A DNA stretch of 64,000 bases, taken from Devosia limi DSM 17137 (lineage in GTDB: Bacteria; Pseudomonadota; Alphaproteobacteria; Rhizobiales; Devosiaceae). Position 1 is the first letter of the stretch. Each line of letters opens with the position of its first letter. Positions 38,926 through 40,275 of this stretch are shown here, in pieces. Position numbers and translations under genes: made by a program. The notes under the pieces are model-generated. The model was not told the origin of the DNA. It made no database searches and saw nothing but the letters and a program-made list of their open reading frames with translations. Location of the stretch: the NCBI RefSeq assembly GCF_900128975.1, contig NZ_FQVC01000005.1, forward strand, positions 186,001 through 250,000, in the 5' to 3' direction.

Positions 38926-40275
38926 ATGCCGCATGCCGTTCCAGCCGCAAGCCCCCTGTCCGCGCGCCGCGCCAACCCGCTGAGCGGTCGTTTTCGCGTC
39001 CCCGGCGACAGGTCGATCTCCCATCGCGCCCTGATGTTTGGCGCCATGGCGAGCGGTCGCACCAGCATTGAAGGCCTGCTCGAAGGCGACGGTATCCTGG
39101 CTACTGGCAACGCCATGCAGGCGCTGGGCGCCCGCGTCGAGCGGCGCGGCGACAGCTGGCTGGTCGATGGCCTGGGTGTCGGCGGTTTTCTGGAGCCGGC
39201 CGCGCCGCTCGATTTCGGCAATGCCGGCACCGGCGTCCGTCTCGCCATGGGTCTGGTCGGCATCTATCCCTTCGCCACCCGCTTTGTCGGCAGTGCCGCG
39301 CTTTCGGCCCGGCCGATGAACCTCGTGCTCGATTCGCTGCGCAGCATTGGCGTCGCGGTGCTTGAGGAAGATGACGGCAGGCTGCCGATCACCCTGCGCG
39401 GCCCGCGCACACCACTCCCCATTCATCATCGCCTGCCCACGGCCTCGGCCCAGGTCAAGTCGGCCATGTTGCTGGCTGGCCTGCTCATTCCGGGCACGAC
39501 CACCATTATCGAGCCGGTGCTGACCCGCGATCACACCGAAAAAATGCTTGCAAGCTTTGGCGCTGAAATCGAGATCACCACCGCTGCCGATGGCGTCAGC
39601 ACCATTGCGGTGCAGGGCCTGCCCAACCTCAAGGCCCAGCACGTCATCGTCCCCGGGGATCCCTCCTCGGCCGCCTTCCCCCTGGTGGCGGCGCTGATCG
39701 TGCCGGGTTCGGATGTGATCATCGAGAACGTGTTGATGAATCCTACCCGCACCGGCCTCATCGATACGCTGCTGGAAATGGGCGGCGATATTCAGTTCCT
39801 CAATCAGCGCCATTCCGGCGGCGAGGATATTGCCGATCTGCGTGTGCGCTCGTCGCGCCTCAAGGGCGTGCGTGTCGCCGCCGATCATGCGCCCTCGATG
39901 ATCGACGACTATCCGGCCCTCGCCATTGCCGCCGCCTTTGCCGAAGGCGAGACGGTGATGGAAGGCCTCGGCGAATTGCGGGTCAGGGAAAGCGACCTGC
40001 TGGCGGCCGTTGCCAAGGGGCTGGCGTTGAATGGCGTCGATTGCAGCGAGGGCCCCGATAGCCTCACCGTGCGCGGCACTGGCAAGGTTGCCGGCGGTGG
40101 CATGGTCCAAACCCGGCTTGATCATCGTGTCGCCATGAGCTTTCTGGTCATGGGCATGGCCAGCCAATTGCCGGTCAGTGTGGATGATCACACCATGATC
40201 GAGCCCAGCTTCCCCAATTTTGTTACCGGCATGAGCAGTGTCGGGGCACAGTTTGACACTCCGGAGAGCCGTTAA
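38926..40275 (+). CDS. aroA: 5-enolpyruvylshikimate-3-phosphate synthase with altered PEP pocket
   Basis: EPSP synthase joins shikimate-3-phosphate and PEP in aromatic amino acid synthesis. The 449-residue protein is collinear with the CP4-like class II enzymes ([18 protein letters not shown], [57 protein letters not shown]). Three usually invariant residues differ. Arg29 replaces the PEP-binding Lys (E. coli Lys22), Arg354 replaces Lys340, and Leu358 replaces Arg344. Gly101 is at the position of Ala100 in CP4. Catalytic Glu355 and Asp327 and Arg129, Gln176 and Arg401 are kept. The stop overlaps cmk (TAATG), so it is in its normal operon. It is probably functional, but with changed PEP or glyphosate binding. 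Confidence 0.93.

Follow-up and report, generated by a model that had tools for sequence, protein, structure and literature searches.

The window, i.e., the whole stretch of 64,000 nucleotides from Devosia limi DSM 17137 that was analysed, carries a class II AroA (EPSP synthase) homologue in an aroA-cmk-rpsA arrangement, as the first-pass annotation of this DNA had recognized. The names cmk and rpsA, the matching E. coli residues and the choice of 17 ligand columns are used below as background assignments. The features are as follows.

38293..38697, minus strand: FYDLN_acid protein gene, the left edge of the locus; where class II aroA is missing from a genome, it is 130-349 nt away from cmk
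38926..40275, plus strand: class II AroA (EPSP synthase) homologue, probably a displaced copy, 449 aa (family model, CP4 structures, predicted fold)
39010..39012, plus strand: Arg29, codon AGG, in place of Lys (CP4 Lys28, presumably E. coli Lys22; CP4 alignment, ligand table)
39712..39867, plus strand: aa 263-314, varying less in the kept copies of the genus than in working enzymes (entropy, pairwise differences, omega)
39985..39987, plus strand: Arg354, codon AGG, in place of Lys (CP4 Lys353, presumably E. coli Lys340; CP4 alignment, ligand table)
39997..39999, plus strand: Leu358, codon CTG, in place of Arg (CP4 Arg357, presumably E. coli Arg344; CP4 alignment, ligand table)
40275..40922, plus strand: presumably cmk, cytidylate kinase, with an ATG that overlaps the aroA stop codon by its final base
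40879..42813, plus strand: open frame of what we take to be rpsA (ribosomal protein S1), with the true start inside the frame

The aroA frame is intact from ATG to TAA. The protein passed the aroA family model TIGR01356 with 385 bits (cut-off 287) and was matched by PF00275. Among solved structures CP4 EPSP synthase was nearest, i.e., 2ggd and 2gg4 aligned with an E-value of 4e-177. The AlphaFold2 model, built from an alignment of relatives, had a pLDDT of 91.6, falling below 50 at aa 1-5 and 351-353, and its predicted fold was that of an EPSPS (TM 0.94 and rmsd 1.6 against open CP4 EPSPS, 2gg4). CP4 EPSP synthase (2gg4, 2gg6, 2ggd) is thus like the window protein in fold, in length and at 63% identity. 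It differs in that the window protein replaces Lys28, Lys353 and Arg357 and has Gly for Ala100, and in that the window's genome holds a second AroA.

The aroA stop lies at -1 relative to the cmk start in the window. The spacing was looked at in 35 of 79 tabulated loci, with cmk reachable in 34, and in 31 of these 34 the stop was found at -4 to +30 nt of the cmk start; the exceptions were G511 (257 nt), G006 (107 nt) and G076 (109 nt). Because two canonical loci (G137 and G119, -4 each) also have the overlap, it predates displacement and is no mark of retention. An alphaproteobacterial linkage aroF(aroA)-cmk-rpsA is described in a part of PMC1173090.

The codons of the three substitutions claimed earlier were confirmed, and window residues 29, 354 and 358 lie opposite CP4 Lys28, Lys353 and Arg357 in the alignment. 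Their reading as substrate ligands holds. In passages of PMC10305266, Lys22, Lys340 and Arg344 of the E. coli enzyme are given as ligand contacts, and Lys22 contacts glyphosate and PEP according to a section of PMC3411725. The tolerance of CP4 is linked to Ala100 in a part of PMC8983318; this change is absent from the window, as was noted before (G101, codon GGC at 39226).

In the ligand table, 3 of the 17 columns were changed in the window copy and 14 kept, i.e., the ligand set of a class II EPSP synthase is incomplete. Among 161 columns invariant in canonical proteins the window departs at 16, 3/17 ligand and 13/144 other. Lys, Lys and Arg stand at the three positions in 25/25 class II AroAs of family members without a second AroA, and not one of the 62 remaining sequences tabulated for the family has the triple R29/R354/L358. 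The three changes are real and rare. Among named loci (the best 80 of 515), 79 had Lys, Lys and Arg, and one was left unparsed; these loci were picked by patterns from the window protein, and the sample therefore leans to close relatives. In the same scan, locus L142, titled Bacillus subtilis SK6B4, has a class II AroA 62% identical to that of the window and is probably mislabelled; its neighbours in the list were Brucella and Pseudochrobactrum.

A second AroA and the fate of the class II gene

The PF00275 search of the window's genome returned three proteins, i.e., MurA, the window gene and P0002. P0002 is an AroA of 425 aa on a separate contig, of another class than the window's, with canonical motifs and closer to the AroAs of E. 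coli and plants. By its motifs it would presumably be the class III of the literature, and hence it is called just the second AroA here. By the same motifs it appears similar in type to P. putida PpAroA1, presented as an AroA outside classes I and II in a part of PMC3097199, and to the class III of the EPSPSClass scheme, as far as sections of PMC9145961 describe it. Thirty orthologues were fetched from the 103 family genomes with a second-AroA match. PGSKSITNR, SSQYV, QDAVP, RVKE[CT]DR and Y[AH]DHR were kept in all of them, GKTYP in 28 and SKTYP in two, and no stop was present in the 30. Judged from these motifs, P0002 would be active in EPSP synthesis. Gene transfer may be its source.

The family sample comprised 136 genomes, with a match threshold of E <= 1e-30 for either AroA; the window's genus is g1. 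The second AroA was found in 103 genomes. It was present at 71-86% identity in all 75 of the window's genus, 18/19 of g21 and four of g26, g27 and g30, and at 36-40% in six genomes of g20, g23 and g25. Class II AroA was found in 64 genomes (32/75 of the window's genus, 6/19 of g21 and 26 in genera without a second AroA). No class II match was obtained in 43/75 congeners. As all 43 have the second AroA, the second AroA seems enough for these bacteria, and the class II copy of the window, which shares its genome with P0002, would be redundant on this pattern. In that case it would be chiefly the second AroA that determines how the cell responds to glyphosate.

The ligand table covers 63 of the 64 class II copies; G148, split over two contigs, was left out. 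All 17 ligand columns were kept in 25/25 tabulated copies (26 exist) from genomes without a second AroA, and in 0/38 copies of g1 and g21, where from 2 (G084) to 17 (G050) were changed. The second AroA is present in 37 of these 38 genomes. The exception is G112 (g21, locus L253), where the class II AroA is strongly eroded and meets the end of a contig, and where no second AroA was found at E <= 1e-30, in an assembly of 750 contigs with 7% contamination. Inner stops were absent from 37 of the 38 copies, among them that of G112, whose frame continues past the contig end. The exception is G076 with two inner stops, and in its assembly the second AroA is likewise split between frames. Two kept copies labelled g1, G054 and G050, group with g21 rows in both trees on long branches.

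A loss of ligands ahead of other residues was considered and rejected: among the 13 core copies the kept fraction was 0.78 for ligand columns and 0.76 for other invariant columns. In later sets the ligand columns fall behind, i.e., 0.42 versus 0.69 and 0.20 versus 0.58. The strongly eroded members are probably inactive catalytically.

Regions upstream of cmk were fetched from 57 class II-free genomes, i.e., 41/43 of the genus and 16 others; the two remaining congeners had no cmk match. In 55 of these regions tblastn with the window protein found nothing at E <= 1; the other two gave antisense matches, at E 0.44 and 0.76. A divergent FYDLN gene was found 130-349 nt from cmk in 56 of the 57 loci, the two genes between which aroA lies in the window. 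In the last one, G100, the contig ends before the FYDLN gene would be reached. No aroA remnant was detected within the family, i.e., the gene is whole or gone. The deleted state required 13 changes on the Cmk tree (12 without the g32 rows), many branches of which are weak, and deletion of class II aroA was therefore probably repeated. The two g32 genomes G149 and G151 (loci L256, L257, L284 and L285), of 2.0-2.1 Mb and 95-98% complete, have no class II AroA beside cmk and one PF00275 protein each, nearest MurA. They are seemingly AroA-free and possible aromatic auxotrophs.

Purifying selection and a constrained segment

Omega was estimated in IQ-TREE (GY+F3X4) as 0.055 in g31 (n = 12) and 0.056 in g29 (n = 6) for canonical copies, and as 0.103 in the core (n = 13), 0.136 in the eroded (n = 6) and 0.193 in the far set (n = 4) of kept copies, three sets of increasing erosion; all are rough values due to saturation. 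In each of 14 sets the fit suffered when omega was fixed at 1 (GY, kappa 2.2), with losses of 59 to 558 log units, and free MG estimates were 0.06-0.27. In close pairs sharing ligand losses, NG86 dN and dS were 0.114 and 0.383 (G352/G261), 0.201 and 0.536 (G021/G065), and 0.321 and 0.931 (G102/G112), i.e., ratios of 0.30-0.38; the YN00 ratios of the first two pairs were 0.14 and 0.15. In a simple neutral simulation of seven pairs, means of 2.9 to 9.9 stops were expected and none was observed, with P(no stop) of 0.000 to 0.063. The frame and the protein are under purifying selection in the clade, over the full frame and after ligand loss. This selection was measured at the level of the clade.

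The copies of the window's clade were also considered as pseudogenes. This was rejected, as inner stops are lacking save in G076, and neither frameshifts nor an omega near 1 mark the set. A second ordinary aroA together with decay of the window copy had been named in the first-pass annotation as evidence against its reading. The second gene was found; the decay consists of clade-wide ligand loss, and stops were not seen.

The segment aa 263-314 is modelled as a helix (277-284) and two strands (288-297 and 300-308). Across 26 kept copies its mean entropies were about 0.5-0.8, against values of up to 1.7 in other blocks; in 25 canonical copies the segment was ordinary. The pairwise amino acid difference among 23 kept copies was 0.19 in the segment versus 0.39-0.50 in the other six blocks. 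In 19 canonical copies it was 0.27 versus 0.20-0.33, i.e., outside the segment the kept copies differ more among themselves than working enzymes do. G054 and G050 have 65-71% identity to the window in the segment and 33% elsewhere.

With branch lengths fixed, omega of the segment and of the rest was 0.041 and 0.161 in 25 kept copies, 0.029 and 0.207 in the far set, 0.064 and 0.074 in canonical copies, and 0.176 and 0.122 in g21. With free lengths the values were 0.086 and 0.140, 0.085 and 0.164, 0.056 and 0.073, and 0.152 and 0.119, respectively. The segment omega of kept copies is thus lower than the canonical one only with fixed lengths (0.041 versus 0.064), and with free lengths it is higher (0.086 versus 0.056). 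The free-length tree measured 13.2 for the segment versus 30.3 for the rest in kept copies, and 23.0 versus 20.9 in canonical copies. Fourfold differences in kept copies were 0.39 in the segment versus 0.42-0.51 elsewhere. Synonymous divergence at 39712-39867 is lowered in kept copies and not in canonical ones, and the sites still vary. Synonymous change is low here too, which selection on the protein alone does not explain. An RNA element was considered and rejected, since the RNAalifold SCI was 0.15-0.16 in kept copies and canonical windows reach 0.23; other windows of the kept copies had lower SCI, up to 0.07. No second frame was open across the segment in every sequence.

Thirteen columns that vary among canonical copies were fixed in at least 27/28 kept ones, and nine of the thirteen fall within the 52 of the segment (Fisher p 1.7e-6, a value that ignores relatedness and concerns a segment picked after the data were seen). 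D280, Q294, R308 and S309, which vary in canonical copies, were fixed in 28/28 kept ones. The window matches the residue at all 13 columns, and so it already carries the constrained surface. In g21, identity in the segment versus the rest was 35-41% versus 37-40% in four of six copies, and 52/48 and 63/62 in the others. In family f15 the segment was not better kept, judged by eye. One new function shared by all is therefore not supported.

Recurrent displacement and a possible role of the kept protein

The sample of the order comprised 397 genomes, and outside the family a second AroA was counted at E <= 1e-60. It was found in 28 genomes of seven families at 51-80% identity. In 12 of the 28, no class II gene reached E <= 1e-20. 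The other 16 retain at least a part of the gene and have lost between 0 and 17 of the 17 ligands, with absent parts scored as losses. In the 11 genomes of f15/g91, the changed ligands numbered 0, 0, 1, 1, 2, 2, 2, 5, 6, 14 and 14 of 17. G511 (f23) had 0/17 changed, and in G466, G416 and G511 both AroAs are present with all 17 class II ligands. In G399 class II aligned in its middle part only. Three f50 copies, cut to 258-297 aa, had 16-17 of 17 ligands changed or missing. Such cut genes, at loci L279, L280 and L281 (g65), are still open with the ligands gone; they had an omega of 0.22 (GY) and end 22-30 nt before cmk. Displacement with graded erosion recurs across families, and the fates differ.

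Pseudoenzymes that arise after non-orthologous gene displacement lose catalytic residues and keep their fold and purifying selection, and the kept AroA copies are like them in these respects. The literature searched, with subscription journals mostly outside it, yielded no account of an inactive AroA being retained by members of this order, nor any paper joining enolpyruvyl transferase with pseudoenzyme. The nearest case is in P. syringae. As given in parts of PMC1173090, the AroF (AroA) domain of its TyrA-AroF fusion is disrupted, with the catalytic function discarded, and the remnant is suggested as a possible new regulatory domain. The stand-alone aroF was probably transferred, being highly identical only to A. 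tumefaciens AroF, which is unlinked to cmk and rpsA. The likeness is a transferred AroF beside a native AroF without catalytic function. However, in that account the domain is truncated, is part of a fusion and belongs to a single lineage, whereas the window's clade has stand-alone, mostly full-length copies in dozens of species, with selection, graded ligand loss and clean deletions.

On balance, we favour the reading that the window gene is a displaced AroA, still in an early phase, that is retained as a non-catalytic protein. An ancestor of the window's genus and its neighbours would have acquired a second AroA of another class. This enzyme, here P0002, would have taken over EPSP synthesis and freed the native class II aroA. 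In many lineages the class II gene would then have been deleted whole. In others, including that of the window, the frame would have stayed intact, its stop overlapping cmk or directly adjoining it, while the ligands were lost stepwise. The retained protein would still be selected, most likely as a non-catalytic partner or regulator, and in the window's genus its important surface may include aa 263-314, i.e., the helix and the two strands. Whether its partner would be Cmk, the new AroA or another protein is a guess. A wider claim is put forward tentatively, i.e., that several times in one order a displaced AroA turned into a non-catalytic protein acting on an operon partner or on the incoming AroA, with newly constrained 263-314 in the window's genus.

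The kept frame could instead be a translated leader. Ribosomes would need it to reach the cmk start, a stop would cut cmk and rpsA expression by polarity, and the protein itself would be idle and fold only to avoid harm. The close spacing of aroA and cmk in 31/34 loci, the ends of the three truncated g65 copies just before cmk and the lack of remnants in the family would fit this. However, the overlap is ancestral, omega is well under 1 between copies with shared ligand losses, and D280, Q294, R308 and S309 are fixed in all 28 kept copies. Clean deletion is also frequent, and thus a leader would be dispensable. The leader is unlikely, though it ranks second after a protein role.

The first-pass annotation took the gene for a working EPSP synthase with a remodelled PEP pocket and lower glyphosate affinity. 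Its observations stand and its interpretation is partly supported. With 14/17 ligands kept, two of three changes conservative (Lys to Arg) and the predicted fold of open CP4 EPSPS, activity would be conceivable. The petunia enzyme reportedly remains active after Lys to Arg at the first position. At 0.18, the branch of the window copy does not exceed those of the canonical G091 and G119 (0.18 each). Because so few ligands are changed, mostly mildly, and the branch is not long, the window copy may still work. Against the claim that it should work stand the second, canonical AroA in the same genome, the change of Arg358 to Leu, which takes away a substrate contact, and the eroding ligands of sister copies. 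Loss of activity in the window copy is likely, and a role as the altered EPSP synthase of the cell is improbable.

It is equally improbable that the protein is a new transferase moving enolpyruvyl to another acceptor, with the presumed PEP side kept in the core subclade and other pocket residues shifted together. In 13/13 core genomes the residues equivalent to Lys28, Arg33, Arg128, Gln175, Asp326, Glu354, Arg357 and the His-Arg pair are unchanged, and Ala174 has become Glu/Asp and Lys353 Gln; Ser29 has become Ala in 12/13 (G084 keeps Ser; CP4 numbering). However, the window pattern differs in that Arg358 is lost and both Ser30 and Ala175 remain, almost everything is gone from some members nested within the same clade, and the immediate neighbour genes suggest no new pathway.

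Replacement by foreign enzymes is usually visible only before or after the event. Here the stages stand side by side, i.e., all ligands beside a second AroA, 2 to 17 of 17 changed, truncated and deleted. The reason why a cell retains a protein possibly past its textbook job becomes testable. If the wider claim above is true, this is a repeated natural experiment in which an essential enzyme loses its reaction and keeps or gains another role. An aroA annotation for such genes, or a glyphosate class assigned to them, can be misleading.

AroAs 69-70% identical to the second AroA were also found on plasmids of Pseudomonas and Erwinia (NZ_CP135972, NZ_CP047266 and NZ_CP146503), a possible vehicle of its spread.
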